From: Muribaculaceae bacterium
GTDB lineage: Bacteria > Bacteroidota > Bacteroidia > Bacteroidales > Muribaculaceae
Direction: 5' to 3'
Length of the DNA stretch: 61,223 nucleotides
Assembly: GCA_022509225.1 (NCBI GenBank)
Contig: JAFLTM010000004.1
Location: 1 to 61,223 of the forward strand
The position numbers and the translations under genes are program-made. Below, piece by piece: positions 32,041 to 50,086 of this stretch (position 1 is the stretch's first letter; every line of letters begins with the position of its first letter). The notes beneath the pieces were generated by a model, which did no database searches, was not told the DNA's origin, and saw nothing but the letters and a program-made list of their open reading frames with translations.

Positions 32041-32083
32041 ATATTGTTTCAAAAGGGATTAAGCTGTATTATGGATAATTTTG
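32041..32083 (+). promoter_or_regulatory. Candidate promoter region of the kduD operon
   Basis: TAATTTTG at 32076-32083 matches the -7 consensus, 25 bases before the ATG at 32108. No -33 TTTG is present. ATATTGTTT at 32041-32049 also occurs, on the minus strand, at 43407-43415 in the other control region of this locus, and could be part of an HTCS site; nine bases alone is weak evidence. Confidence 0.38.
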
Positions 32084-32107
32084 CAACATCAACAAATAGT
32101 CTTAACC

Positions 32108-32902
32108 ATGGATAAACTTTTTTCACTTGAAGGGAAAGTAGCCCTTGTCACAGGCGGTGTTTACGGCATAGGATTCGCAATAGCCAAAGCCTTGCACGGA
32201 GCCGGTGCAAAGATAGTTTACAACAGCAACACACAGGAAATGTTGGATCTTGGAGCCCGGAATTATAAAGAGGCGGGTATTGATGCAAAATCCTATCTGT
32301 GTGACGTGACCGATGAAGAAGCCGTCAAAGCAATGGTCACTGATATCGAAAAGACCCTCGGGGGAGTCGACATTCTTGTCAACAACGCTGGCATCATTAA
32401 AAGAATCCCGATGCATGAAATGGATGTGAAAGATTTCCGTCAGGTTGTCGACATAGACCTTGTGGCCCCATATATATGTGCCAAGGCTGTAATTCCGGGC
32501 ATGATCAAGAAGGGTCACGGCAAAATCATCAATATCTGTTCGATGATGAGTGAACTCGGACGTGAGACAGTAAGTGCCTATGCCGCCGCCAAAGGTGGCT
32601 TGAAAATGCTTACACGTAACATCTGTTCGGAATATGGTGAATATAACATTCAATGTAACGGTATTGGCCCGGGATATATAGCAACACCCCAGACAGCTCC
32701 CTTGCGCGAACGTCAGCCTGACGGCAGCCGTCATCCTTTCGACAGTTTCATTATTGCTAAAACCCCGGCCGGAAGGTGGGGCACACCCGAAGATCTGGGT
32801 GGGCCGGCAGTGTTCCTTGCATCAAAAGCATCGGATTTTGTTAACGGACATGTATTGTATGTCGACGGGGGAATACTTGCATATATAGGCAAACAGCCTT
32901 AG
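32108..32902 (+). CDS. kduD: KduD-like SDR (2-dehydro-3-deoxy-D-gluconate 5-dehydrogenase)
   Basis: 264 residues from the ATG at 32108; a TTG at 32081 is in frame but less likely. Classical SDR: V-T-G-G-V-Y-G-I-G (cofactor site), N-N-A-G-I in the middle, catalytic S-M-M-S-E with Y-A-A-A-K, and a C-terminal Y-V-D-G-G-I-L. The start M-D-K-L-F-S-L-E-G-K-V-A-L-V-T-G and length fit the KduD / gluconate 5-dehydrogenase subgroup. KduD reduces 3-deoxy-D-glycero-2,5-hexodiulosonate to KDG with NAD(P)H in the cytoplasm. The operon context with kduI, KDG kinase and KDPG aldolase makes this the best reading. Confidence 0.88.
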   Translation: MDKLFSLEGKVALVTGGVYGIGFAIAKALHGAGAKIVYNSNTQEMLDLGARNYKEAGIDAKSYLCDVTDEEAVKAMVTDIEKTLGGVDILVNNAGIIKRIPMHEMDVKDFRQVVDIDLVAPYICAKAVIPGMIKKGHGKIINICSMMSELGRETVSAYAAAKGGLKMLTRNICSEYGEYNIQCNGIGPGYIATPQTAPLRERQPDGSRHPFDSFIIAKTPAGRWGTPEDLGGPAVFLASKASDFVNGHVLYVDGGILAYIGKQP

Positions 32903-32925
32903 TCACTTATTCTTCTTCATAATTG

Positions 32926-34347
32926 ATGGAGCAAGTCTTTTCTTATATAATAGGTCTTGGAGCTGCCGTGATGATGCCTATCATCTTCACGGTGCTCGGA
33001 CTTTGTATCCGTATCAAACCGGGCGATGCATTGAAGTCCGGCCTGAAAGTGGGTGTGGGCTTTGTCGGACTTTCCATAGTCACGGCACTTCTCACGTCGG
33101 CCTTGGGACCGGCACTTGACACAGTGGTCAATATCTATGACCTTCAGCTCCATGTCTTTGACATGGGTTGGCCCGCTGCCGCTGCCGTGGCATATAACAC
33201 CGCTGTCGGGGCCTTCATAATTCCTGTATGCCTCGCTGTAAACATACTGATGCTCTTCACCAAGACAACACGGACCGTAAATATAGATCTATGGAACTAC
33301 TGGCACTTCGCTTTTATCGGAGCCGTGATATATTTTGCATCCGATTCTTTGGCGTGGGGTTTTTTCGGTGCGATTGTCTGCTACATTATAACCCTTATAA
33401 TAGCCGACATGACAGCGAAAAAGGTGCAAATGTTCTATAAGGATATGGACGGAATAACTATTCCGCAACCATTTTGTGCCGGTTTCGCTCCATTTGCCTG
33501 GGGCATTAACAAATGCCTTGACAAAATCCCCGGAGTGAATAAAATCGATATCGACGCCGAGGGGATGAAACGTAAATTCGGACTTCTCGGAGAACCTCTT
33601 TTTCTAGGCGTTATTGTAGGAATGTTGATAGGTTGTCTTACATGCTCTTCCTGGAAAGAACTTGTGGATAAGATCCCATATATTCTGGGATTGGGTATAA
33701 AAATGGGAGCTGTTATGGAACTTATCCCTCGCGTGACCGTGCTCTTTATTGAGGGATTGAAACCCATAAGCGACGCGACAAGAGCTTTGATTGCACGTAA
33801 ATTCAAGGGTGCAGACGGCCTTAATATCGGTATGAGTCCCGCTCTTGTGATAGGGGCTCCCACAACCCTTGTCGTTTCCCTGCTTCTAATTCCGGTCACT
33901 CTTTTTCTTGCCGTTATTCTTCCGGGAAACCAGTTCCTTCCCCTTGCCTCCCTTGCAGGAATGTTTTATGTTTTCCCCCTTGTATTGCCTTATACCAAAG
34001 GAAATGTTTTCAAAACTTTCATTGTCGGGCTTGTTGTGATTATCCTTGCCTTATATATGGTTACTAATATCGCGCCTTGGTTCACATTGGCAGCAAAGGA
34101 TGTGTATGCAGCGACTCAAGACGGTGCGGTGGCCATACCTGAAGGTTTCAGCGGGGGAAGCCTTGACTTTGCCGGCTCTCCATTGTCGTGGATAATATTT
34201 CAGTTCACACAAAATCTGAAATGGATAGGTTCGGGAATTCTGGTTGTCGCCACCATGGGTCTCATGTGGTGGAACAGGGTTCTTATCATCAGAAACCAGA
34301 AAGCAATGATAAAGGCCGGATCAGACAGGCTCCAAGATATGGAATAA
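32926..34347 (+). CDS. Orphan PTS IIC-type transporter (GatC/SgcC family)
   Basis: 473 residues from the ATG at 32926 (a TTG directly before it is in frame). At least nine hydrophobic segments. It aligns by eye along its length with galactitol IIC: G-x-G-F-V-G near residue 50, N-V-D/I-W-N-x-W-H near 123, I-P-G-V-N-K/R-I, K-F-G-x-x-G-E-P near 220, P-G-N-Q-x-L-P near 336. No IIA, IIB, EI or HPr gene is beside it. It sits 23 bases after kduD and 40 before the KDG kinase, so it is the obvious inner-membrane importer for this locus. Transport of a keto-deoxy-uronate without phosphorylation is inference. Confidence 0.85.
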   Translation: MEQVFSYIIGLGAAVMMPIIFTVLGLCIRIKPGDALKSGLKVGVGFVGLSIVTALLTSALGPALDTVVNIYDLQLHVFDMGWPAAAAVAYNTAVGAFIIPVCLAVNILMLFTKTTRTVNIDLWNYWHFAFIGAVIYFASDSLAWGFFGAIVCYIITLIIADMTAKKVQMFYKDMDGITIPQPFCAGFAPFAWGINKCLDKIPGVNKIDIDAEGMKRKFGLLGEPLFLGVIVGMLIGCLTCSSWKELVDKIPYILGLGIKMGAVMELIPRVTVLFIEGLKPISDATRALIARKFKGADGLNIGMSPALVIGAPTTLVVSLLLIPVTLFLAVILPGNQFLPLASLAGMFYVFPLVLPYTKGNVFKTFIVGLVVIILALYMVTNIAPWFTLAAKDVYAATQDGAVAIPEGFSGGSLDFAGSPLSWIIFQFTQNLKWIGSGILVVATMGLMWWNRVLIIRNQKAMIKAGSDRLQDME

Positions 34348-34387: not shown

Positions 34388-35410
34388 ATGTCAAAAATTG
34401 TCACATTTGGTGAAATCATGCTGAGGCTCTCTCCCCCCGGCTTTCACCGTTTCTTACAAACCGACACATTCGATGTGATCTGGGGTGGGGGAGAGGCTAA
34501 TGTTGCGGTTTCATGTGCAAATTATGGCCATGACACTTACTTTGTGAGCAAACTCCCGGAACATGAGATAGGACAAGCCGCATTAAATGCTTTACGCCGT
34601 TATGGAGTAAAAACAGATTTTATTTCACGTGGAGGAAACCGAGTCGGAATATATTATTGTGAAACAGGCGACTCCATGCGTCCCTCAAAAGTTATTTACG
34701 ACAGAGCCGGCTCCGCCATAGCGGAAGCCTATCCTTCCGATTTTGATTTTGACAAAATTATGAAGGATGCCGACTGGTTTCATTGGAGCGGAATAACTCC
34801 TGCAATATCCGATAAAGCCGCCCTGTTGACAAGCATGGCTTGCGAGGCTGCTAAACGGAACGGTGTCACAGTCAGTGTTGACCTGAATTTCCGAAAAAAA
34901 TTATGGACACCGGAGAAAGCAAGGAGCATCATGAAGCCACTTATGAAATATGTGGATGTCTGTATAGGTAATGAAGAGGATGCAGAACTTTGTCTCGGTT
35001 TCAAGCCGGCTGCAGATATAGAGGCAGGTCAAACATCCGGTGAGGGTTACAAACAGATTTTCAAGGCGATGATGAAAGAATTCGGTTTCAAATATGTGGC
35101 AACCACTTTAAGAGAATCCTATTCCGCCAGCAATAACGGCTGGAAAGCCATGATTTATGATGGAAAGGAATTCTATGAATCCAAACGCTACGACATCAAT
35201 CCTATAGTTGACAGGGTAGGTGGAGGAGACGCTTTTTCAGGAGGCCTGATACATGGATTGTTGACAATACCGAGTCAAGAGGAGGCATTGGAATTCGCTG
35301 TTGCGGCATCAGCCCTTAAACAGACTATCAACGGAGATTTTAACCTGGTCACTGCCCAAGAGGTGAAAGCTCTTGCAGGTGGCAATACAAACGGAAGAGT
35401 TCAGAGATAA
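34388..35410 (+). CDS. kdgK: 2-dehydro-3-deoxygluconate (KDG) kinase, PfkB family
   Basis: 340 residues. Starts with [12 protein letters not shown] and G-G-G-E-A-N-V-A-V, the KDG-kinase form of the PfkB N-terminal motif; the catalytic loop reads [12 protein letters not shown] (G-G-G-D instead of the common G-A-G-D). It phosphorylates KDG to KDPG. Its TAA stop shares one base with the ATG of the aldolase, so the two are translationally coupled. Confidence 0.9.
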
Positions 35411-36069
35411 TGGCAAGATTTGACAAATTTAAACTTTTCAAAAAGTTTGCAGACACACCCGTGGTGCCGGTGTTTTATAACAGTGACATCGAAATCACTA
35501 AAAATATTGTGAATGCCTGTTATAAAGGAGGCATACGCTGCTTTGAATTCACAAACCGGGGAGACTTCGCGCATGAAGTTTTCGGAGAGCTTGTTAAGTT
35601 CGTGATAAAAGAATGTCCGGAAATGGCGCTCGGTGTCGGTTCGATTGTTGACGCTCCTACTGCAGCACTCTTCATGCAGTTAGGTGCCGACTTTGTGGTA
35701 GGTCCCCTTTTCAACATGGAGGTTGCAAAGATATGCAATCGGCGACAGGTGTGCTATATTCCCGGCTGCGGATCCGTCAGCGAGACCGGAATGGCACAGG
35801 AAGCCGGTTGTGAGATAGTGAAAGTATTTCCCGGTGATGTGTTGGGCCCGAAGTTTGTGAAAGGATTGCTTGCACCGATGCCATGGTCTAAAATTATGGT
35901 GACGGGAGGTGTGGAACCATCTGCTGAAAATCTTCATGCCTGGTTCAAGGCGGGTGCATTTTGTGTAGGAATGGGGAGTAAACTATTCCCGAAAGATAAA
36001 GTGAATTCCAAAGACTGGGAATCAATTACAGAAATTTGCAAACAAACAATAGAATGTATAAAGCCATGA
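35410..36069 (+). CDS. eda: KDPG/KHG aldolase
   Basis: 219 residues, TIM-barrel class I aldolase. Catalytic landmarks: the glutamate in C-F-E-F-T-N-R-G, the I-P-G-C-G-S-V-S-E strand and the Schiff-base lysine in V-K-V-F-P-G, followed by V-T-G-G-V near the phosphate site. It cleaves KDPG to pyruvate and glyceraldehyde-3-phosphate, the last step of the pathway. It overlaps kdgK by one base and its stop overlaps the ATG of kduI (ATGA), so the operon is tightly coupled. Confidence 0.92.
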
Positions 36070-36983
36070 AAAAATTTTTATTGACAATGACATTGCTGTC
36101 TGCCATGACAATGTCTGCACAAATAGAATATTCCATACTTACAGCCTCACATCCTGACGATGTCAAAGAATATGACACGAAACAGCTGAGAGACCGTTTT
36201 GTGATGGAAAAAGTAATGTGTCCCGACACAATCAATTTCACTTATTCTCTTTACGACAGAATAATGTATGGAGGTGTGGTGCCGGTCACCAAGACTGTGG
36301 TTCTTGAAACAATCGATCCCCTTAAAGCCGAATATTTCCTTGAAAGGCGTGAACTCGGTGTTATAAACACCGGTGGTGACGGAATAGTTAGTGTTGACGG
36401 AAAAGATTATGAGCTTTCCTTTAAGGATGCCATCTATATCGGGAAAGGCAACAGGAATGTGTCATTCAGAAGCAAGGACTCAAATAACCCTGCAAAATTT
36501 TATATCAACTCGACTCCGGCACATCATGCATATAAGACCCAGGTTGTTACTATAGACGGGAGGAAAGGAACCATAAAAGCTAATCAAATCAAGGCAGGTT
36601 CGATGAAAGAAAGTAACGACCGTATAATCAACCAGTTGATTTGTGCCAATGTGCTTGAAGAGGGTCCGTGCCAGCTTCAGATGGGGCTTACAGAACTCAT
36701 GCCGGGCTCTGTATGGAACACCATGCCGCCTCATACCCATACTCGCCGTGTTGAAGCTTATTACTACTTCAATCTTCCGGAAGGCAATGCGATATGTCAT
36801 CTGATGGGCGACCCACAGGAAACCAGGGTGATTTGGCTTCATAACGAACAGGCGGTGATGTCGCCGGAATGGTCGATACATGCTGCGGCAGGCACCTCAA
36901 ACTATATTTTCATCTGGGGTATGGGTGGAGAGAACCTCGATTATAACGATCAAGACAAAGTCACGTATCTCGACCTTAAATGA
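36066..36983 (+). CDS. kduI: 5-dehydro-4-deoxy-D-glucuronate isomerase (KduI) with signal peptide
   Basis: 305 residues from the ATG at 36066, which overlaps the aldolase stop (ATGA). The cupin zinc site is intact: His223 and His225 (P-H-T-H-T), Glu230, His272. The spacings (2, 5, 42) equal those of E. coli KduI (196, 198, 203, 245), shifted by 27, and the protein is 27 residues longer. The extra N-terminus is [19 protein letters not shown], a clear Sec signal peptide. KduI isomerises 4-deoxy-L-threo-5-hexosulose uronate to 3-deoxy-D-glycero-2,5-hexodiulosonate, usually in the cytoplasm; here a periplasmic site is predicted, next to the lyase and GH88 products. Confidence 0.92.
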
Positions 36984-38104
36984 TTTATATGAAAAGGGCT
37001 TTCTTACTTTTTGTCTTGACATGCTCTCTTCTGGCATGCTCAAAACCTCATGCCATCACCATTACAAACAATTCGGAACTTACGAGAGAAAAGGAAATTG
37101 TTGAAATAGATTATTCCGATATCCGGAAACTTGACATTGGCACCGATTTCCTTTTATTGGATGAAAGAGGTGAAGAGATTCCATATCAACTGACTTACAA
37201 CAACAAGGTTATATTCCCCGTAACCATAAATGCCGGAGAAACCGCTGTTATAAAGGTTGAAAAAGGTATCCCTTCAAGATTTGACACGATAGCATGCGGA
37301 GCTTTCTATCCTCAAAGGAAGGACGACCTTGCATGGGAAAACGACAAGTCAGCCTACCGGGCTTATGGACCGGCATTGCAACAAAGCGGAGAAAAAGCTT
37401 TTGGCTATGACATTTGGACCAAATCCGTGGAACATCCGGTTGTTGCTCAAAGATATCATAATGCACTTGAGCTCGGGATTCCGTATCATAAAGATAATGG
37501 CGACGGTATGGATGTCTATACGGTAGGTCCTACATTGGGAGGGGGGACTACCGCCCTGTTGGATACGGCTGGTAATCTAATATTTCCGTGGGGATTCAAG
37601 GATTATGAGATTTTAGACAACGGCCCCCTCAGGTTCACGGCTAAACTCACCTATGATTCCGGAGAGACTCGTTTGATTTCCCTTGATGCAGGGGAATATC
37701 TCAACAAAACTGATGTCTCTTATCCAAATCCCGAAAACAATGTCATTGCTTCCGGTATTGTTATACATCGGCAAAATCCTGAAGGTTTTGAACTCTCAGC
37801 TGCCAAAAATTATATGGCTTATGCAGACCTGACTGATAATGCCAATGCGGGCAACGGTGTTATTTATGTCGGGATTGTGACTGAAGAAGCAGACTCCATG
37901 ATTAATCTTCCTTTGAAAGAACCCCAAGGAGATGCCATAGGTCATATTCTTGCTCTAAAATCTTATAAACCCGGTGAGAAATACACCTATTACTGGGGAT
38001 CGGGTTGGAGCAAGGGTTTTATGCCTGATTGGGAATCCTGGCTGAATTATCTCGCAAATTTCAGATCTCGCCTTGATTCACCCTTGTCTGTTACAGTTGA
38101 ATGA
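36980..38104 (+). CDS. DUF4861-family lipoprotein
   Basis: 374 residues (or 371 from the ATG at 36989). The first ATG overlaps the kduI stop (ATGA). Lipobox S-L-L-A-C about residue 21. The rest matches the DUF4861 type: N-N-S-E-L-T-R near the start of the mature protein, G-P-x-[18 protein letters not shown] and a C-terminal [10 protein letters not shown] segment. I know of no firm biochemical role. Its envelope location and coupling to an exported KduI suggest it acts on, or binds, the same unsaturated or keto uronate products. Confidence 0.75.
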
Positions 38105-38823
38105 AAACTATCAATTACGAAAATATGCTGATCACTGAGTTTGGAATTATAGTATTGGCGGGTCTCCTTATTTTCTTCATTTATGTTTTTTGGAAAAAAA
38201 CAGACAACGGCTTTCTTTCGGATGTCGTGACTTCGGAAGGCGATGAAAGCAATTCTCTTGAATCACACTTAGCTGAGAATAACTTAAGGAATGAAACCGG
38301 AATTGTTGGAATTCCCACAATTGTTAATGAAGAAATTGAACTTACTTCTGATTTTCAATATAATATACATTCCGTCTGTAAGGGAGATCAATCGCAATTC
38401 AACACCACTTACGGAGAATTATTTCCCGAACATTATGATGATAAGCTTTCAGAGAATAAAGTGAGAAGATTGCTGCCAAATGAAATAGATTTTGTCAGAA
38501 ATGTTGAGGGATTGATAAGGGAGAGCGTGGATTCACCGGATTTCAACATATCGTTAGTCTATAAAAAAATGGGGATGTCAAGATCGCTGTTTTTCAGTAA
38601 ATTCAAGAGAATCACAGGCATGACACCATATTCGATAATGATAAACGAAAGAATGAAACATGCGGCATTGCTCCTGTCGCAACAACCTCATCTGAGTATT
38701 ACGGAAGTTTCCGACCGCTCCGGTTTCACGTCTCCCGTTTATTTCAGCAGAAGTTTTAAGAAACAATTCGGAATCTCTCCATTCAATTATCGTAAGAAAG
38801 CAATAGAAAACCCCGACCTTTGA
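38101..38823 (+). CDS. Membrane-anchored AraC-type regulator
   Basis: 240 residues; ATG overlaps the DUF4861 stop (ATGA). One hydrophobic helix near residues 11-31 (F-G-I-I-V-L-A-G-L-L-I-F-F-I-Y-V), followed by basic residues, a 100-residue linker without recognisable kinase or receiver motifs, then a complete AraC HTH domain (about 135-235; M-G-M-S-R-S-L-F-F-S-K-F-K and F-T-S-P-V-Y-F-S-R-S-F-K-K). It resembles the output end of an HTCS fused to a membrane anchor. With positive residues after the helix, the HTH should be cytoplasmic. It could be a true one-component membrane regulator or the shortened remnant of an HTCS. Confidence 0.75.
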   Translation: MKTINYENMLITEFGIIVLAGLLIFFIYVFWKKTDNGFLSDVVTSEGDESNSLESHLAENNLRNETGIVGIPTIVNEEIELTSDFQYNIHSVCKGDQSQFNTTYGELFPEHYDDKLSENKVRRLLPNEIDFVRNVEGLIRESVDSPDFNISLVYKKMGMSRSLFFSKFKRITGMTPYSIMINERMKHAALLLSQQPHLSITEVSDRSGFTSPVYFSRSFKKQFGISPFNYRKKAIENPDL

Positions 38824-40120: not shown

Positions 40121-41341
40121 TTATCTGTTTAAATTTCTTTTGCGAGTCAAAGCTTCAAGATAGTAATAATCAGCATAGTTTAGAGGCACATCTATCTCGC
40201 TCTTATGTGGGAGTGAGCCTGTGGAGTGTTTCAGGATAAATCTGCCGTTTTCATCCGGTTTGGCAGAATAATTGTCGCTGGTCAGGTTTTCCATGATTTG
40301 GTCGGCATAATCCCTGTAAGATTCAGCATTTTCCAACGGGAATGTGGAAATCTCATAAAGAGCGGAAGCAATAATTGCCGCAGTTGACGCATCTCTTGGT
40401 TCGTATGGTATTCCGGGAGCATCCATATCCCAATAAGGAATGAGGTCTGCCGGCATGTTTTCATGATTCTTCATGAAGTCAAAAGTCTTCAAGGCCTGGT
40501 CAAGATATTTCTTGTCGCCAGTTTCACGGAAACACATAGTGTAGCCGTAAATTGCCCATGCCTGTCCGCGTGCCCATGCAGAATCGTCGGAGTACCCTTG
40601 TCCCGTGTTACGGTTCAAAACCTCACCGGTTTCAGGATTATAGTCTATAACATGAAACGTGCTCCCGTCTTCACGGAAATGTTCCTGAAGTGTCTTGTCG
40701 GCATGACTCACAGCTATATTATAATAAGTGGAATCGCCCGTTAGTTTCGATGCCTCGAAAAGCAATTCAAGATTCATCATGTTGTCGATAATCACAGGAC
40801 ATGTCCACCCTTTCTTTTCCTGCCACGACCCTGGAGAGACATTCCAACTTTGTATCACGCCGGCACCCGGACGGAAACGTGTTGACAGGCTGTTGGCAGC
40901 TGTGACAAGCACGGAATCATATTTTTCCTTATTTACAAATCTTCTGGCATTTCCAAAAGAGCAGTTGATGATAAAGCCTATGTCATGATGGGATGTGAGA
41001 TTTTGTGCTTCAGATATAGCTTCGGTGTATTTTGTAGCCAAAGGTACTAAAGTGCTGTCGCCTGTAAGCTCATAGAGATACCAGACACTGCCGGGGAAGA
41101 AACCGCTTCTCCAGTCGGTCGGTCCGCAATATGCCGTGTTGAAACGGTTCACTGATGTAGATACAGGATTCAGCACCCTGTCGGTGGTGTCTGCCTCTAT
41201 TGCTTCTATCTGAAGACCCATCATAGTCTTGGCATTCTCAACACCTTGGGTCTGCCAGTCATTGGAAGTATCTGTAGGTTTTGTTGCACATCCGGAAATT
41301 ACAAGAGCCAATAATGCTCCCGAAATCAGGTTTACTTTCAT
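40121..41341 (-). CDS. GH88 unsaturated uronyl hydrolase, lipoprotein
   Basis: 406 residues; lipobox V-I-S-G-C at residue 18. Alpha6/alpha6 barrel with the GH88 marks: D-W-R-S-G-F-F-P-G-S-V-W, H-D-I-G-F (equivalent of Asp88 of Bacillus UGL), I-I-D-N-M-M-N-L (equivalent of Asp149, the acid/base) and D-D-S-A-W-A-R-G-Q-A-W. It hydrates the double bond of a terminal delta-4,5-unsaturated uronic acid and releases it; the sugar then opens to the substrate of KduI. Located between the lyase and DUF2264. A lipoprotein form places it on the periplasmic or outer membrane face. Confidence 0.92.
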   Translation of the reverse strand: MKVNLISGALLALVISGCATKPTDTSNDWQTQGVENAKTMMGLQIEAIEADTTDRVLNPVSTSVNRFNTAYCGPTDWRSGFFPGSVWYLYELTGDSTLVPLATKYTEAISEAQNLTSHHDIGFIINCSFGNARRFVNKEKYDSVLVTAANSLSTRFRPGAGVIQSWNVSPGSWQEKKGWTCPVIIDNMMNLELLFEASKLTGDSTYYNIAVSHADKTLQEHFREDGSTFHVIDYNPETGEVLNRNTGQGYSDDSAWARGQAWAIYGYTMCFRETGDKKYLDQALKTFDFMKNHENMPADLIPYWDMDAPGIPYEPRDASTAAIIASALYEISTFPLENAESYRDYADQIMENLTSDNYSAKPDENGRFILKHSTGSLPHKSEIDVPLNYADYYYLEALTRKRNLNR

Positions 41342-41367: not shown

Positions 41368-43272
41368 TTATAATGCTGTGAAGGTATAAGTGTATGTGCC
41401 CGTTTTAGCAGGTTTCTTATCCTTAAGGGATATACGGGTAATTTTCGGCCCCCAGACATTGCTCAACCTCTTGTCAGGAAGTTCCTGGTCTTCGGTGACA
41501 ACATCAAACTGAGATGCGTTATACTTTAATTGTGCCTTATGTCCGTTGGCATTAATATTGACAACACCCGGAGTCTTTATGTCGACTTCACCCCATGTCA
41601 GGAAATTTACAACATTTGGTTCCTTCACTTCTTTAAGGTCGTATTTGTCGGTGACCTTCACGTCACGCCCTTTCACATTATAAGAACGAACCCAGTTATT
41701 GATGCCGGCTTCTGCAGGATATGCATCCTTGAGGTTAACTTCAAACGTGTTCTTCCCCGCCTTGGCTTCAGTGGCCTTGAAATTCTTTCCATGAGGCTGC
41801 TCATAGCCGTTGATAACGGGCAGATTGTGCCACCCACTCTGCATTGTCCAGATGTTGTAACGCTCATTGCTGAAGGTCTGGCGTGTATAGGTGCCGACAC
41901 CGGCATCTATCAGCAGGGGATAATTGTCTGCCCAAACAGAGAAAGTTCCAGCATCGTTATGGTTATGGCTTTCATCATTGAAGCCTCCTTTTGAAGCGAA
42001 GAATAGATCCTGAGGCGTAGATATATATACAAATTCGGTTTCAGGATACCATGTATAGTCCGGACGTTGGAAATTACCTTTGTGCTCTTTTAATTCCGGC
42101 ATGATTTCAAGAGCCAGGAACGTACGGTTAATGTCGCGCCCATTATTCGGAGCTCCTTTGCCATTATACATTAGGGCAGCGAAATTTTTAAGTAGATCGG
42201 AATCTACAGCCTTACCATATCTATAAACCAGATATGGCTCGCCTCCACCTCTGGCGCTTGCATCGGCAAAATTCACAACCCAACCGTCACCAACATACGA
42301 TCTGGCAATATATTCACCCATATCCTTTATAAGCTTTTCATCGGCAATATTAAGCTTTCCATCTGTTGCCATCGACAATATATCTACGTAATCAAGAGTT
42401 TTTCCGGCAGCATGACCCCAATAAGAGGGCCCTTCCTCACAGGCTCCATCCTCTTTTACATAATTCAGAAATTTGTCCATGGCCAGATTGGTGTTGTTGG
42501 CAATCTCGGCATACCTGTCGGGATCATCTTCTATCAGCATGGCTGTGAGCAAGATGTTGCTCAAGCACCATGGCGACCAGTTGTTAAGCATGCGACCGCT
42601 GTATTTACGGCTGCCGTCCCACCAGAAACTGTCATATTCCAGATAAGGATCAAGCACCCTGGTTTTCAATTCATGTTTCAGTCTCCTTGATATTTCAGGA
42701 TTTACTTTGTCGAATTCAGGCTGCATGAAATAATAGACCCAACCATAAAGGTTTCCCATATCTCCGGCAACAAGATCCACTACCGGTTGGTCGTATGGCT
42801 GGATTGACCTTCCTCCCCTCGCAGGAATATGTGCGCTCAAAGCCCATGATGTCATTTCTGCAGCTGCATATACCCCGTTTATCAATTGATCGATAAATCT
42901 TCCTTGACCCTCGGCAAGCTCTGCCATGAGAAGATCCGCCACGGCCTTGTTGTTGGCATCCATCGGGCCTTCCATTATTTGCCTGTTGCCACTTCTTTCA
43001 TACTCAAGGTAATCGGTGGCTTTAATCCTGGGCCAGTCATGTTTTAGTGCTTTCTCTCCTTGTTGGATATAATAATCCTTAGAATCTCCCAACAGAGCGT
43101 CCCATCCTGCCCGATCCGTATATGCCGGCAGATTCACCCACTCCTGATTTTTCACAAGCATTTGCTTAAGGTCATCTTTCGAAGCGCGAGATGAAATCAG
43201 ATTCCGTTCCTTATAGGCGGATGCACTAACCGCAACCATAAGGATAGCGACCAACGTTATAAGTTTCTTCAT
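41368..43272 (-). CDS. Heparinase II/III-family polysaccharide lyase, periplasmic
   Basis: 634 residues with a signal peptide ending near A-S-A-Y. N-terminal alpha/alpha toroid (L-N-N-W-S-P-W, E-E-G-P-S-Y-W-G-H-A with the likely catalytic Asn and Tyr) and a C-terminal beta-sandwich region beginning with S-H-N-H-N-D-A-G-T-F-S-V-W, the Heparinase II/III signature with the catalytic and metal-binding histidines. It cleaves uronic-acid glycans by beta-elimination, leaving an unsaturated uronate for GH88. The PL family (PL12, 15, 17, 21, 33 and others share this fold) cannot be fixed by eye; glycosaminoglycan, gellan-like or alginate-like substrates all remain possible. Confidence 0.88.
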   Translation of the reverse strand: MKKLITLVAILMVAVSASAYKERNLISSRASKDDLKQMLVKNQEWVNLPAYTDRAGWDALLGDSKDYYIQQGEKALKHDWPRIKATDYLEYERSGNRQIMEGPMDANNKAVADLLMAELAEGQGRFIDQLINGVYAAAEMTSWALSAHIPARGGRSIQPYDQPVVDLVAGDMGNLYGWVYYFMQPEFDKVNPEISRRLKHELKTRVLDPYLEYDSFWWDGSRKYSGRMLNNWSPWCLSNILLTAMLIEDDPDRYAEIANNTNLAMDKFLNYVKEDGACEEGPSYWGHAAGKTLDYVDILSMATDGKLNIADEKLIKDMGEYIARSYVGDGWVVNFADASARGGGEPYLVYRYGKAVDSDLLKNFAALMYNGKGAPNNGRDINRTFLALEIMPELKEHKGNFQRPDYTWYPETEFVYISTPQDLFFASKGGFNDESHNHNDAGTFSVWADNYPLLIDAGVGTYTRQTFSNERYNIWTMQSGWHNLPVINGYEQPHGKNFKATEAKAGKNTFEVNLKDAYPAEAGINNWVRSYNVKGRDVKVTDKYDLKEVKEPNVVNFLTWGEVDIKTPGVVNINANGHKAQLKYNASQFDVVTEDQELPDKRLSNVWGPKITRISLKDKKPAKTGTYTYTFTAL

Positions 43273-43568: not shown

Positions 43569-46500
43569 ATGATTAACCAGCAGACAATGAAAAAAGGCGT
43601 GTCGGTGTCAGGCTTGAGATGTCAGGGATGGTTAAAATCGGCTTTGATCGCCGGTTGTTTTCTGTTGCCTGCAGGGGTCTTGAACTCCTTTGCAGTCCCT
43701 GCGGAAGCTCCTGCAAGCGCGCCCGAAAACATGGTTACAGTGAGCGGACAAGTTATGGATTCTGATGGAAATCCTGTTATCGGTGCTTCTGTACGAGTGA
43801 AGAACAGAGCTAATGTAGGCACTGCTACAGATATGAACGGTATGTATTCCCTCAGTGTTCCGGCCAACAGCACCCTTGTTTTCACTTATGTAGGAGTGCT
43901 TCCGCAGGAAGTTAAAATCCAAAACGGACAAACCGTTTATAATGTAACTCTCCAGGAAGATGCCATTGCACTTGACGGTGTCGTTGTTGTAGGTTACGGC
44001 ACAGAAAAGAAGGTCAATCTCACCGGTTCGGTATCTTCAATAAATGCTGATGAGATTGCCGAAAATCGGCCTATCTCCAATATCTCTCAGGCTCTTGCAG
44101 GTTTGGCTGCAGGTGTGAATGTCACTTCAGCCTCCAACCAGCCTGGTGATAATAACGCCACAATACGTATCCGTGGTGTAGGAACCCTGAATGATGCGGC
44201 TCCTCTTGTTATAATAGATGGAGTGGAATCAGATATCAACACGGTCAATCCGCCGGATATTGAATCAATCTCTGTTTTGAAAGATGCTGCCTCAGCTTCT
44301 ATATATGGTTCACGTGCCGCTAATGGTGTTATTCTTATAACTACTAAAAGAGGTAAGGCAGGCCAGATCAAAGTGAATTACAACGGTTATGTGTCATTCC
44401 AGTCGATCCGCAAGACAATGACTCCACTCAGCAATTATGCGGATTATATGGAAATTATAAATGAGGGACTTTCAAATTCAGGACAGACAGAAGTTTTCTC
44501 ACAAGAAATGATAAATGCATGGCGCACCGGAAACGATCCGTTGAAATACCCGAATACCGACTGGATAGATGAAACTTTCAAGGGTTCAACATCGACTAAT
44601 CATGTGGTATCTCTCACGGGTGGTACAGACAAGATCCATTTCTTCTCTTCATTCGGATATAACTATAACCCGGGAGTGATGCCCAATGCTACCTACAATC
44701 AATATAACGCTCGTATCAATCTTGATGCCGACGTAAAGAAATGGCTCAGTCTTGGTGTGAACGCAAGCGGTCTGGTGGGCATCAGTGATCCGGGTGTGCG
44801 CGCTCAATCCGATATCTTCACCTATGCAGCCGCAACGTCACCGGGTATGGTTTTCCAGGCTCCCGATGGTCGCTTCGGTGCTCCTAACAACACTGAAGAT
44901 GATGGACAGATGGCCACCAACAATCCTATATCAAGAGCTTACAGAATCACAGGAGACACCCGTCGTAATCAAATGAGAGCTAAATTCTGGGGAACTATCC
45001 GTCCTCTTGAAGGTCTTTCATTCACAGCCACTTATAACTATCAGTTCACAGATAGCCAGCAAAGGAATAAACCGGTTTATCAAGAAGGATGGAATTTCCT
45101 CTTGGATCAGGCCACCTATAACAACTATAGTACTGTGATGACTGTGAGCAATACTGATACAAAGGTTTATCGGTTCTTCTGGGACGTTGTGGGAAATTAC
45201 AGCAAACTTTTCTGGGACAAATTCCAACTCAACGTTATGGTGGGTGCATCGAATGAAAAATACAGGTGGAGTCAGGTCTATACTTCCAAACAAGATTTGA
45301 TCGACCCGGATCTTTGGGCTTTCAATGCTGCCACAGGTGATGCAAACGCCACCGGTTATTCCACAGAATGGGCAATGCGTAGTTTCTTTGGACGTATCAA
45401 TCTGAACTGGGAAGAAAAATACTTGGCTGAGTTCAATATACGTCGCGACGGTTCAAGCCGTTTCGCCAAGGAAAGCCGCTGGGGTACATTCCCATCAGGT
45501 TCTATCGGATGGCGTATCGACAAGGAAGCTTTCATGGAGTCATTGGTCGACAAGGGTCTAACCGCTTTGAAAATCCGTGCCAGCTATGGTAGCTTGGGTA
45601 ACAACTCCGTTGGTAACTACGACTATCAATCCCTCTACACAAGTTCAGGAAACAGTTACGTGCTTGGCAACGCTCTTCAGCCCGGTCTTGCTATCGGTGC
45701 GATAGCCAACCAGCTTTTGACATGGGAATCCACAAAGGTGTTTGATATCGGTCTTGATTTCGCTCTCTTCAACAATAGACTCAGCGGGGTGTTCGACTAT
45801 TTCAACAAGAAAACAACCAATATCCTTATTTCATTACCTGCACCTGCTGTTCATGGCACCGCAAGTCTGCCCACTCTTAACAGCGCAGGGGTAAGCAACA
45901 AGGGTTTTGAATTTACTCTCACATGGAACGACCGTGTCGGTAAAGTTAATTACGGCGCTTCATTCAATGTGACCCATGTCACCAATATTGTCGACAAATT
46001 CAGAGGCACGGATAAAGACGGTATGTCAATCTCAGGCACCAACCTTATTTGGGAAGGTCACCCGATCAATAGCCAATACATGCTGAAAGTAGATCGTATT
46101 CTACAGACCGAAGCCGATATGAAGATTGTTGAAGATATGCTTGCAGCTAACCCGAATGCCTTCGCTTCATACGGAAAACCTCAGTTAGGCGACTTCTTGT
46201 ATCAGGATACAAACGGTGACGGCATCATCAATGCAGACGACCGTGTGATTGTTTCAAACGGACCGAACCCCACATGGTATATGGGACTCAACCTTAACCT
46301 TGAATGGAACGGTATTGATTTCAGCATGCTTATGCAATCACAATTAGGCGCTCACAGATATACCCAGAACCTTTATAATAATCCGGTTGTGAGATGGGGT
46401 TATCAGCTTAACAAAGAAGTGGTTGAAGGTCGCTGGTATCCCGGACGTACAGACGCTACTTATCCTCGTCTGTTAAACTACACTAACACAATTAATACTC

Positions 46501-46736
46501 AGGCGAGTGATTTCTATCTACAAAGTCTTAACTTCTTGAAAATCCGGAATATTGAAATCGGGTATTCACTGCCAAAGAAATGGATGGAAGCTATGAAAAT
46601 TGAAAGAATCCGTATCTATGGTACACTTGAAAACTTCTTTACATTCACGAAGTATAAAGGTATAGATCCCGAAGTCGCCGGTATGGGTTACCCGACCATG
46701 CGTCAGGCTGTAATTGGAGTAAATGTAACATTCTAA
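43569..46736 (+). CDS. SusC/RagA TonB-dependent transporter (uronate locus)
   Basis: 1055 residues. The N-terminus is long: M-I-N-Q-Q-T-M-K-K, hydrophobic core L-I-A-G-C-F-L-L-P-A-G-V-L; an ATG at 43587 is an alternative start. Then the carboxypeptidase-regulatory-like domain (V-S-G-Q-V-M-D-S-D-G-N-P-V-I-G-A-S, about 57-135), plug (G-V-V-V-V-G-Y-G-T) and barrel, ending V-I-G-V-N-V-T-F. It should import lyase-sized oligosaccharides. SusD follows after 15 bases. Divergent from the heparinase operon with a 296-base shared control region. Confidence 0.95.
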   Translation: MINQQTMKKGVSVSGLRCQGWLKSALIAGCFLLPAGVLNSFAVPAEAPASAPENMVTVSGQVMDSDGNPVIGASVRVKNRANVGTATDMNGMYSLSVPANSTLVFTYVGVLPQEVKIQNGQTVYNVTLQEDAIALDGVVVVGYGTEKKVNLTGSVSSINADEIAENRPISNISQALAGLAAGVNVTSASNQPGDNNATIRIRGVGTLNDAAPLVIIDGVESDINTVNPPDIESISVLKDAASASIYGSRAANGVILITTKRGKAGQIKVNYNGYVSFQSIRKTMTPLSNYADYMEIINEGLSNSGQTEVFSQEMINAWRTGNDPLKYPNTDWIDETFKGSTSTNHVVSLTGGTDKIHFFSSFGYNYNPGVMPNATYNQYNARINLDADVKKWLSLGVNASGLVGISDPGVRAQSDIFTYAAATSPGMVFQAPDGRFGAPNNTEDDGQMATNNPISRAYRITGDTRRNQMRAKFWGTIRPLEGLSFTATYNYQFTDSQQRNKPVYQEGWNFLLDQATYNNYSTVMTVSNTDTKVYRFFWDVVGNYSKLFWDKFQLNVMVGASNEKYRWSQVYTSKQDLIDPDLWAFNAATGDANATGYSTEWAMRSFFGRINLNWEEKYLAEFNIRRDGSSRFAKESRWGTFPSGSIGWRIDKEAFMESLVDKGLTALKIRASYGSLGNNSVGNYDYQSLYTSSGNSYVLGNALQPGLAIGAIANQLLTWESTKVFDIGLDFALFNNRLSGVFDYFNKKTTNILISLPAPAVHGTASLPTLNSAGVSNKGFEFTLTWNDRVGKVNYGASFNVTHVTNIVDKFRGTDKDGMSISGTNLIWEGHPINSQYMLKVDRILQTEADMKIVEDMLAANPNAFASYGKPQLGDFLYQDTNGDGIINADDRVIVSNGPNPTWYMGLNLNLEWNGIDFSMLMQSQLGAHRYTQNLYNNPVVRWGYQLNKEVVEGRWYPGRTDATYPRLLNYTNTINTQASDFYLQSLNFLKIRNIEIGYSLPKKWMEAMKIERIRIYGTLENFFTFTKYKGIDPEVAGMGYPTMRQAVIGVNVTF

Positions 46737-46751
46737 CATCAGAAGAACACT

Positions 46752-48470
46752 ATGAAACTTTTCAAAATATTACCAGTGGCTGCAATCGCGTCATTGATGG
46801 GATTGACAAGTTGCTACGATCTTGATCTGGCACCTGACTCCTCTTTGAGTTCGGGTAACTTCTTCAAGACCGAAGACCATGCGAAACAAGCAATGATGGC
46901 TGTGTATTCAACCATGCAGAATGACTATGTTTTCGGAATGTATTTCAACCTTGACTGTCTGGGCGGTGTTTCAACAGGCTATGACCCCTATGCTTTGATG
47001 CCTTTCCAGCAGGGTACTATCGCGGTCAACAATGGTTATGTGCTCAATTATTGGCAGTACACTTATGAAGGAATTGCAAGAACCAACAATATCCTTCAGA
47101 ATATCGATAACGTGGATATGAGCACCGAACTTAAAAACCAGTATATCGGTGAGGCCAAGTTCATGAGAGCCTTGTATTATTTCCAGCTTCTCAATCTCTA
47201 TGGCGGTGTGCCTCTCTATGACGAGACAACAATCATAGCGGAAGAATTCACTGAAATGAAGAAACCGCGTTCCACGGCTGAGGAAACCCGTAATTTCATT
47301 CTTGCCGATTTAGCTGTTGCGGAATCTTATCTCCCTGCCTCATGGGATTCATCCAATTATGGAAGGGCCACTTCAGGTGCTGCCACAGCATTAAAAGGGA
47401 AAGTGCTCCTTTTTGGCAAGCAATATCAGGCTGCTTCCCAGGCTTTCAGTCAGGTTATTAATTCAGGAATGTATCAGCTCTATTCCGACTATGCCGGACT
47501 GTTCCTCCCCGGTGGTGATGAAAGTTCGGAAATGATATTTGCAATTCAAAACCTGGGTGGCGTCGGTCAGGATATAGGTATGCCGATGGCTTTCTACCTT
47601 GGTTCACGTGCCACATACGGTTCTTGCTGGAACAATGTGATGCCCGCCACCACTTTTGTTGACTCATTTGAATGGAATGATGGTCGTCCTTTCGACTGGG
47701 ATGAATTCATTCCCGGTTACACAGAGAGTCAGGATCTCCGTTTTGATGTTTGGTATTCCACTCCCAATGCCGGATTCAACAGTATTGTGGATTATACCCC
47801 TTACAGAGATCAGCTCCTTGAAATGTATAGCCAGCGCGACCCACGTATGATGGAGACAGTTATTCTTCCCTACACAAATTATGTGGGTTGGAGAAGTTTG
47901 ACGGCAACAACGTTTGAATACGGGCTTTTCGATGGAAACGTTGCCGATGACAATGGAACTCTGCTTCGTCCTAACGGAAATCGCCAGCTTTATCTGTGGA
48001 GAAAGTTCGTGCCAGAGGGTGATATGAACGGATTATTGAACAATCGTTCAGACACTCCTATCAACTTTGCACTTATTCGTTATGCAGATGTACTCCTCAT
48101 GCAAGCTGAATGTCTAAATGAGTTAGGAGATGTTAATGGTGCGATTCAACTTATAAATCAAGTGCGTGCTCGTTCCAATATGCCCGGAATCAATAGCGGG
48201 CCCTCTTATCTGGCAGCCACAAGCAAGGATGAGGTGTTTGAACGCATCAAACATGAAAGAGCCGTTGAACTCTGTTGCGAAGGTCACAGTTACTTCGACA
48301 TGAAACGATGGGGTCTTCTCCAGACTTTAGATGGTAAACGTGAGATGTATATCCCCCTAAATGGGGCGAACTTGACACGTGTTGTGACAGAACGATATAA
48401 TTTATGGCCTATTCCAAGTACAGAAATAGAAAAGAATCCTGATCTTACACAAAATCCCGGTTGGGAATGA
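46752..48470 (+). CDS. SusD/RagB family outer-membrane lipoprotein (uronate locus)
   Basis: 572 residues; lipobox L-T-S-C at about residue 21. SusD marks: A-R-T-N-N-I-L-Q-N-I, A-K-F-M-R-A-L-Y-Y-F-Q-L-L-N-L-Y-G-G-V-P-L, and C-terminal R-Y-A-D-V-L-L-M-Q-A-E-C-L-N-E-L with H-S-Y-F-D-M-K-R-W. Surface glycan-binding partner of the SusC upstream. A 13-bp hairpin separates it from the sulfatase gene. Confidence 0.94.
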   Translation: MKLFKILPVAAIASLMGLTSCYDLDLAPDSSLSSGNFFKTEDHAKQAMMAVYSTMQNDYVFGMYFNLDCLGGVSTGYDPYALMPFQQGTIAVNNGYVLNYWQYTYEGIARTNNILQNIDNVDMSTELKNQYIGEAKFMRALYYFQLLNLYGGVPLYDETTIIAEEFTEMKKPRSTAEETRNFILADLAVAESYLPASWDSSNYGRATSGAATALKGKVLLFGKQYQAASQAFSQVINSGMYQLYSDYAGLFLPGGDESSEMIFAIQNLGGVGQDIGMPMAFYLGSRATYGSCWNNVMPATTFVDSFEWNDGRPFDWDEFIPGYTESQDLRFDVWYSTPNAGFNSIVDYTPYRDQLLEMYSQRDPRMMETVILPYTNYVGWRSLTATTFEYGLFDGNVADDNGTLLRPNGNRQLYLWRKFVPEGDMNGLLNNRSDTPINFALIRYADVLLMQAECLNELGDVNGAIQLINQVRARSNMPGINSGPSYLAATSKDEVFERIKHERAVELCCEGHSYFDMKRWGLLQTLDGKREMYIPLNGANLTRVVTERYNLWPIPSTEIEKNPDLTQNPGWE

Positions 48471-48504: not shown

Positions 48505-48538
48505 GACAATGCAATGCTATATTTGGCATTGCATTGTC
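48505..48538 (+). other. Perfect 13-bp hairpin between susD and the sulfatase gene
   Basis: GACAATGCAATGC (48505-48517) pairs fully with GCATTGCATTGTC (48526-48538); loop 8 bases. TTAATT follows, a poor U-tract, so it is more likely an intercistronic attenuator or an RNA-processing or stability element than a full terminator. Confidence 0.7.
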
Positions 48539-48553
48539 TTAATTAAAAGAATC

Positions 48554-50086
48554 ATGAAAACGGCACTCACAGGAATATTGTCAGTTTCAGCGTCCATAGT
48601 GGTCATGGCGGAGAAACCAAATGTAATCTATGTATTCCCGGACCAGATGAGGAATCATGCAATGGGTTTCTGGAATGAAGAACCATTCAAGGATTCAGTC
48701 AATTTCACGGCTGATCCGGTTATCACCCCAAATCTTAATGAATTCGCTCGTCAGTCAAGGGTTCTTACTTCCTGTCAAAGTAATTTCCCCCTCAGTTCAC
48801 CACACAGAGGGATGTTGCTGACCGGCATGTTCAGCCAAAATTCCGGCATAAGCACAAATTGTGTGGCCAACAGGCCTGTGAGCGATCTCCGAGACGATGC
48901 CGAGTGTATTAGCGATGTCTTTCATAAGGCAGGTTATGATTGTGCCTATATAGGAAAGCTTCATGCCAACCATCCCACTCCCAATGATCCTCAGAATCCG
49001 GGACATTATGTTGAAAGTCAGGTGCCGGCTTGGGATGCATACACACCTCCTGAAAAACGTCACGGCTTCAATTACTGGTATAGCTACGGAACCTACGATG
49101 TCCACAAACATCCCCATTACTGGGACACGGAAGGTGACCGTCATGAAATTAGCCAATGGTCTCCTACACATGAAACAGACAAGGCTATAGATTATTTATG
49201 TAATAATAACAATGAACGAGATTCCTCCAAACCTTTTTTCATGATGTTAAGTTATAATCCACCTCACAGTCCCTATCGTTCCACGGAAGACTGTCCGGAA
49301 GACACCTACGATTTATATTCCGGAAAATCTTTGGGAGAATTGTTAGTGAGAGAGAATGTGGATACAACAATGACTAAGGCGCCGAGTGTCAGGTATTATT
49401 TCGCATCGGTGAGCGGAATTGACAGGGAGTTTGGCAGGATACTGACTACACTTGACAGTCTTGGCCTTCAAGACAATACCATAGTTGTTTTCTCCTCTGA
49501 TCATGGAGAGACAATGTGCAGTCAAGGTATTGAGGATCCTAAAAATTCCCCTTATTCTGAAAGTATGAATGTCCCTATGTTGATAAGATATCCCGGAAAG
49601 ATAAAACCTTATATCGACACGGAACTAATTCTTTCTACGCCTGACATAATGCCTACATTGCTCGGTCTCGTCGGACTTGAGGAAAAGATTCCCCATGAAG
49701 TCGAGGGTCGTGATTACTCCGGGAGATTCCTTGGGCGTGATGAATATGCGCCATTGAGAAAAGGTGCGCTTTATATAAAAAACAGTGACGGTGCAAAAGA
49801 CTCTGCGGGAAATGTGATATCATATTTTCCCCTTTCAAGAGGTATCAAGACTCATCGTTATACACTTGCCCTTAATCTTGACAAAAAGACAGGTCAACTT
49901 AAAAATTCACTTCTCTTTGATGATGTGAATGATCCTTATCAACTTGTCAATTTACCTTTGGAAGATCATCCCGAAGTGGTGGCTCAGCTTTGTAAAGAAA
50001 TGGCAATCCTTCTAAAGGAAGCGGATGATCCCTGGTATAATGAGAAAATATTGTCGGAATTGATACCCTATGACGATATAAATTAG
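48554..50086 (+). CDS. Sulfatase (S1 type, serine-type active site), periplasmic
   Basis: 510 residues from the ATG at 48554; an in-frame ATG at 48509 lies inside the hairpin and gives a poor signal. Signal peptide, then P-N-V-I-Y-V-F-P-D-Q. The active-site motif is S-S-P-H-R-G-M-L-L-T-G: the first Ser (residue 81) would be converted to formylglycine by an anaerobic sulfatase-maturing enzyme. Metal and catalytic residues continue in F-S-S-D-H-G-E-T. The sulfate ester position it attacks cannot be told. It shows that the target glycan of the locus is probably sulfated. Converges with the ATP-grasp gene, with 20 bases between and no obvious terminator. Confidence 0.9.
   Translation: MKTALTGILSVSASIVVMAEKPNVIYVFPDQMRNHAMGFWNEEPFKDSVNFTADPVITPNLNEFARQSRVLTSCQSNFPLSSPHRGMLLTGMFSQNSGISTNCVANRPVSDLRDDAECISDVFHKAGYDCAYIGKLHANHPTPNDPQNPGHYVESQVPAWDAYTPPEKRHGFNYWYSYGTYDVHKHPHYWDTEGDRHEISQWSPTHETDKAIDYLCNNNNERDSSKPFFMMLSYNPPHSPYRSTEDCPEDTYDLYSGKSLGELLVRENVDTTMTKAPSVRYYFASVSGIDREFGRILTTLDSLGLQDNTIVVFSSDHGETMCSQGIEDPKNSPYSESMNVPMLIRYPGKIKPYIDTELILSTPDIMPTLLGLVGLEEKIPHEVEGRDYSGRFLGRDEYAPLRKGALYIKNSDGAKDSAGNVISYFPLSRGIKTHRYTLALNLDKKTGQLKNSLLFDDVNDPYQLVNLPLEDHPEVVAQLCKEMAILLKEADDPWYNEKILSELIPYDDIN

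Follow-up and report, generated by a model that had tools for sequence, protein, structure and literature searches.

Why does the KduI isomerase in a Muribaculaceae genome, a sugar-acid enzyme that is normally cytoplasmic, begin with what looks like a signal peptide, and what would its export mean for the compound that has to cross the inner membrane? Here, we analyze a stretch of 61,223 nucleotides (the window; contig JAFLTM010000004.1 of assembly GCA_022509225.1) that encodes such a protein. Our preferred reading, to which we give a probability of about two in three, is that KduI is exported to the periplasm and works with a GatC-like EIIC permease that serves as a phosphorylation-free carrier.

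The window KduI matches NF002091 with 387.6 bits (cut-off 250) over residues 25 to 305 in an NCBIfam search, and PF04962 with 78 bits (cut-off 23.9) in a Pfam search. In a global alignment with E. coli K-12 KduI (from NC_000913), the reference for mapping the zinc site, 141 of the 276 aligned positions are identical. An earlier note on this DNA had stated that the zinc ligands keep the E. coli spacing with a shift of 27 and that the protein is longer by the same number of residues. Both statements hold: H223, H225, E230 and H272 correspond to H196, H198, E203 and H245, and the proteins have 305 and 278 residues, respectively. The ligands are invariant across 23 aligned KduI sequences and, like the other invariant columns, are common to signal-bearing and signal-less KduI. 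As also proposed, the KduI ATG at 36066 overlaps the KdgA stop (TGA, 36067 to 36069) by four bases, read as ATGA, and the DUF4861 gene is coupled to KduI likewise, its start at 36980 overlapping the KduI stop. A search of the window genome, whose completeness is 83%, found a single copy of KduI.

The N-terminal extension, which the earlier note took for a textbook signal peptide, has the features predicted for a Sec/SPI substrate, i.e., a charged start, a hydrophobic core and an S-x-A motif followed by Q. Cleavage is predicted before Q19 (MSA|Q), in agreement with the Q-rule of Bacteroidetes. As PMC5837995 describes this rule, most SPI substrates in Bacteroidetes carry Q at position +1; the average Q-value is 71%, and 332 of 334 species exceed 48%. 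Among signal-bearing homologues of KduI, Q occupies position +1 in 111/132. Homologues share the extension, in which individual residues vary and the character is constant, and a signal peptide with Q at +1 is retained in loci whose titles name Muribaculaceae, Bacteroides, Phocaeicola, and Prevotella or Xylanibacter. An alternative in-frame ATG 12 bases upstream, at 36054, would also yield a signal peptide.

Signal peptides were called by a hand-written rule rather than by SignalP; the rule asks for K or R in the n-region, an uncharged hydrophobic core and small residues at −3 and −1. Applied to control proteins, it was positive for KdgA in 1/40, KdgK in 0/34, KduD in 8/106 and EIIC in 1/87, never with Q at +1; applied to proteins of the exported type, it was positive for DUF4861 in 39/42, GH88 in 5/6 and DUF2264 in only 2/6. 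The rule is thus imperfect, both in its KduD positives and in the 4/6 DUF2264 proteins that it missed. For KduIs with an EIIC seen in the locus it was positive in 94/94, versus 12/121 of those in which no EIIC was seen. In 8 of these 12, the window included, an EIIC appeared with wider flanks; three of the remaining four lie at a contig edge, and the fourth (G114) has an EIIC on another contig. O-glycosylation motifs of Bacteroidetes are a possible mark of export, and exported KduI shows no enrichment of them (0.35 per protein versus 0.54 expected; 0.70 versus 0.59 expected in signal-less KduI), which possibly counts against the exported reading. Altogether, as far as sequence can tell, export of KduI as suggested by the earlier note is well supported by the conserved signal peptide, the Q at +1 and the first residue of a relative of solved structure, 9kd0, which is discussed below.

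Among the neighbors sought, the most consistent correlate of the signal peptide is the EIIC gene. We examined 241 KduI places (80 named loci, 105 from an order-wide sample, 55 from the family, and the window), which the signal rule itself divides into 132 positive and 109 negative. An EIIC lies on the same strand in 125/132 signal-bearing loci and in 0/109 signal-less loci. Four of the seven signal-bearing loci without such an EIIC are cut by contig edges; G186 shows an incomplete EIIC where its contig ends, together with a full copy elsewhere, G114 is the case described above, and in G121 (85% complete) no EIIC was found. The two reading frames are at most 300 bases apart in 104/125 loci; in the window, KdgK and KdgA separate them. 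Other neighbors in the 132 loci, counts of which partly reflect flank length, are KduD (62), KdgK (47), KdgA (32) and DUF4861 (25). In three loci (L067, titled Bacteroides, L239 and L242), the EIIC–KduI pair stands without homologues of KduD, KdgK and KdgA in the fetched flanks. What matters is that the pair persists as the genes around it vary. In the order-wide sample, EIIC was found in 10/393 genomes, the window genome being one of the ten, and all 10 copies lie less than 2 kb from a signal-bearing KduI; in a sample of the phylum, it was found in 3/395 genomes, all 3 of this order (Bacteroidales). In Xylanibacter ruminicola (L093:8989-10440, + strand), an MFS transporter gene directly follows EIIC and KduI. 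In G059, KduI is in two pieces on two contigs (C67 and C63), one with an in-frame TGA, and a stop-free EIIC match shares a contig with one of the pieces.

The earlier note had proposed asking whether signal-bearing KduIs cluster with both GatC-like EIIC and DUF4861 genes, and had counted the neighboring DUF4861 lipoprotein as a supporting clue. The signal-bearing proteins do cluster and go with the EIIC, but not with DUF4861, which occurs in 25/132 signal-bearing versus 39/109 signal-less loci, in sets that differ in flank length. Because DUF4861 lies with KduI of either kind, it is no marker of the exported form. No carrier common to the signal-less KduI loci was found; genes for TRAP transporters lie close to KduI in two named loci, L130 and L133, which fits import of the earlier compound there.

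How many independent events these counts represent depends on descent. In a KduI tree of 83 chosen rows, the signal label changes 2 times, versus a mean of 26.5 when labels are shuffled. With the signal region removed, the 34 chosen signal-bearing rows form two well-supported clades of 28 and 6, and a single signal-bearing clade was not rejected by the AU test (p = 0.497). The EIIC tree (33 rows) splits into the same two sets. Signal-bearing KduIs may therefore have a single origin, in which case the many loci amount to few independent events; the loci are related by descent, and the counts are of non-independent events. Three genomes hold both kinds of KduI: G274 (L147, L246), G377 (L146, L241) and G580 (L242, L228). 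In each, the signal-bearing KduI is with EIIC and the signal-less one lies elsewhere.

The sampling behind these numbers was as follows. The named set comprises the best 80 of more than 587 relatives, and is not a fair draw; the nearest among these 80 are titled Muribaculaceae. The order sample is a fair draw: KduI matched in 103/393 genomes, and the 105 places fetched comprise 96 signal-less and 9 signal-bearing. In the family Muribaculaceae, 61/198 genomes have a match to the window KduI. The family search gave 63 places, 57 of which are in the count table (55 refetched, G013 in the order set, and the window); G119, G196, G128:C27, two G059 fragments and one G181 fragment were left out. Fragments and contig-edge pieces left out of the order set are G522:C578, G428, G208, G327:C219, G359:C246 and G563:C215. 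One signal-less row, L248, has a truncated N-terminus, and named loci and sampled genomes may overlap in species.

The window EIIC falls under the cut-off of TIGR00827 (393.7 versus 542.2 bits), and 152 of the 448 positions aligned with E. coli GatC are identical, most conserved charged residues being common to both. In 14 genomes with this EIIC, 11 of them at least 90% complete, neither PTS_IIB (PF02302) nor the N-terminal domain of enzyme I (PF05524) was found in any (0/14 each), in searches confined to these two PTS components, whose controls matched. Because neither EIIB nor enzyme I was found in these genomes, this EIIC probably transports its cargo without the usual phosphorylation. At residue 312, the window EIIC has Ala, encoded by GCT and thus two changes away from a His codon. 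This position is His in E. coli GatC and in 121/125 EIIC homologues, Asn in two others, and one homologue has no match to the motif used. Because Ala312 replaces a conserved His, the carrier may be altered in the window strain.

The genes around KduI (Table 1) suggest where its substrate would come from and where its product would go. On the + strand, the run reads dehydrogenase, EIIC, KdgK-like kinase, KdgA, KduI, DUF4861 and AraC-type regulator; just downstream, on the − strand, a DUF2264 gene lies beside GH88. The dehydrogenase is above the cut-off of NF005488, “gluconate 5-dehydrogenase” (485.9 bits, cut-off 369), and misses the kduD cut-offs (TIGR01832, 223.1 versus 338.85; NF005390, 242.4 versus 369); we therefore infer its role as KduD from context. 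NCBIfam kinase models match the KdgK-like kinase, none above its cut-off. Lipoboxes were recognized by eye in the DUF4861 protein (LLAC) and in GH88 (LVISGC), which we take as the source of the KduI substrate. The predicted structure of the DUF4861 protein, a low-confidence model (mean pLDDT 66.1), appears to resemble part of GH38 enzymes, and the AraC-type regulator has a hydrophobic, membrane-like N-terminus. Judged from its sequences, the gene set appears to serve the use of a sulfated glycosaminoglycan.

Table 1. Features of the window around KduI, with positions counted from its first nucleotide.
Feature	Position	Strand	Basis and remarks
Short-chain dehydrogenase, taken as KduD by context	32081..32902	+	No signal peptide seen; start codon uncertain
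GatC-like EIIC permease, proposed importer of the KduI product	32923..34347	+	PF03611 (EIIC-GAT domain), 274.3 bits
KdgK-like sugar kinase	34388..35410	+	PF00294, 107.9 bits
KdgA, KDPG/KHG aldolase	35410..36069	+	NF005499, 365.4 bits (cut-off 275)
Predicted signal peptide, KduI residues 1–18	36066..36119	+	Sequence, rule-based check, homologues, start of 9kd0
KduI	36066..36983	+	305 aa; NF002091 match and zinc ligands
DUF4861 (BT3233 family) lipoprotein	36980..38104	+	PF16153, 282.9 bits; NF058564, 356.7 bits (cut-off 320)
AraC-type regulator	38101..38823	+	Overlaps DUF4861 stop
GH88 unsaturated glucuronyl hydrolase	40121..41341	−	PF07470, 50.1 bits; 336.9 bits to GH88 3wiw
Heparinase II/III-like protein, probable polysaccharide lyase	41368..43272	−	738.6 bits to 8r73; signal peptide by eye
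SusC-like ORF	43569..46736	+	Judged by eye from translation
SusD	46752..48470	+	Pfam
Sulfatase	48509..50086	+	Pfam; 767.3 bits to 6s21 endo-4-O-sulfatase, closest match

We suggest, with somewhat better than even confidence, a split route whose first two steps, those of GH88 and KduI, take place in the periplasm; what the PTS-free GatC-type EIIC would then import is the 2,5-diketo-3-deoxy acid rather than the 5-keto uronate or an oligosaccharide (intermediates are named from general knowledge of the pathway). Outside the inner membrane, the lyase and the GH88 lipoprotein would release unsaturated glucuronate from fragments of a sulfated glycosaminoglycan, and this would open to 5-keto-4-deoxyuronate. 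Exported KduI would convert this aldehyde to 3-deoxy-D-glycero-2,5-hexodiulosonate. The EIIC would bring this 2,5-diketo acid in without phosphorylating it, after which the dehydrogenase, kinase and aldolase encoded in the same run would complete the route in the cytoplasm. KduD needs NADH and is hence cytoplasmic. If KduI is periplasmic, as we infer, and the dehydrogenase is cytoplasmic, the compound passing the inner membrane would be the 2,5-diketo form, because only one KduI was found in the window genome. Such a separation of the two enzymes requires that the KduI product be carried inward, and the EIIC is the obvious candidate carrier.

Not every observation points to this substrate. E. 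coli KduI has been reported to be active on hexuronates, and an exported KduI might accordingly act on another uronate, turning glucuronate or galacturonate into fructuronate or tagaturonate, which the EIIC would then import. The three pairs with no KduD homologue in the fetched flanks, the presence of KduD in fewer than half of the signal-bearing loci, gluconate 5-dehydrogenase as the best model for the window dehydrogenase, and the MFS transporter after KduI in Xylanibacter would all be in line with this. We nevertheless regard it as unlikely: in the window, the pair shares its run with a dehydrogenase, a kinase and an aldolase, and its neighbors include GH88, a sulfatase and a protein resembling lyases; the zinc ligands and invariant columns do not distinguish signal-bearing from signal-less KduI; and 9kd0 is titled as a glycosaminoglycan enzyme. 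It is also conceivable, since adjacency alone is no proof of a shared substrate, that exported KduI removes a reactive aldehyde from the periplasm while the EIIC takes up a different compound and some other carrier brings in the uronate. That EIIC is the one sought neighbor present in nearly all signal-bearing loci, whereas KduD, KdgK, KdgA and DUF4861 vary, and that no EIIC in the order sample stands without a signal-bearing KduI, make this unlikely as well.

Finally, the signal peptide could be apparent only, with translation starting downstream or KduI staying in the cytoplasm. A start at Met16 would yield a signal-less KduI, and a Met is present at this position or close to it in some relatives. 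However, many relatives without Met16 (e.g., L003, L005 and L067) keep the charged start and hydrophobic extension, which argues from sequence that the start does not lie further downstream, as the earlier note had allowed it might. The prevalence of Q at +1, the lack of any signal-less KduI with an EIIC, and the B. ovatus chain that begins at the mature Q likewise speak against it, and we consider it very unlikely. Returning to an exported KduI that works with the EIIC, an isomerase outside the membrane would change the compound that has to be transported and sensed and that neighbors may share. The export signal and the nearly constant EIIC neighbor suggest that bacteria with this form of KduI rearrange the sugar before uptake.

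The closest known protein is KduI2 of Bacteroides ovatus (PDB 9kd0, released 2025-10-29), the same form of KduI and 72% identical over 263 aligned residues. Its chain begins at the residue matching Q19 of the window protein; the depositors therefore apparently omitted the signal peptide. Its title, “responsible for metabolism of glycosaminoglycan,” is silent on export and on a partner permease. The exported KduI as a protein is thus already at least implicit in 9kd0; no description of KduI export or of its link to EIIC was found in the literature searched, beyond which a paper on 9kd0 may exist and may give the location of the protein. E. coli KduI (1x8m, 1xru) and B. ovatus KduI1 (9kcz) share the fold and zinc site of the window KduI. 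Unlike the window protein, that of E. coli lacks a signal peptide; the 9kcz chain also seems to begin without one, as a trimmed construct would, and B. ovatus may likewise hold both kinds.

In B. thetaiotaomicron, as described in the relevant part of PMC9067506, a review of glycosaminoglycan use in the gut, GH88 acts on periplasmic lyase products and the unsulfated monomers then cross the inner membrane; that part names no carrier for chondroitin and, for heparin, a putative hexose transporter, BT4653, for desulfated monosaccharides. For the uronate half of glycosaminoglycan use, the KduI–EIIC module suggests a candidate carrier and names the compound that it would move. Its EIIC differs from E. 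coli GatC, the EIIC of the galactitol PTS, in that EIIB and enzyme I were not found with it in the 14 genomes searched. A GatC homologue of this sort, the orphan “galactitol IIC” of Bacteroides (TC 4.A.5.1.4), is described in PMC6281302 from bacteria that lack PTS phosphoryl-transfer proteins; its survey section reports the lone IIC in five of seven Bacteroides strains and suggests a secondary carrier. From family membership, this is probably the protein studied here. The orphan genes are called monocistronic in that section, which names no substrate, whereas the EIIC of the window type almost always lies with an exported KduI; this association predicts a substrate, and the split route, if true, would assign that substrate to the orphan transporter in Bacteroides and its relatives.
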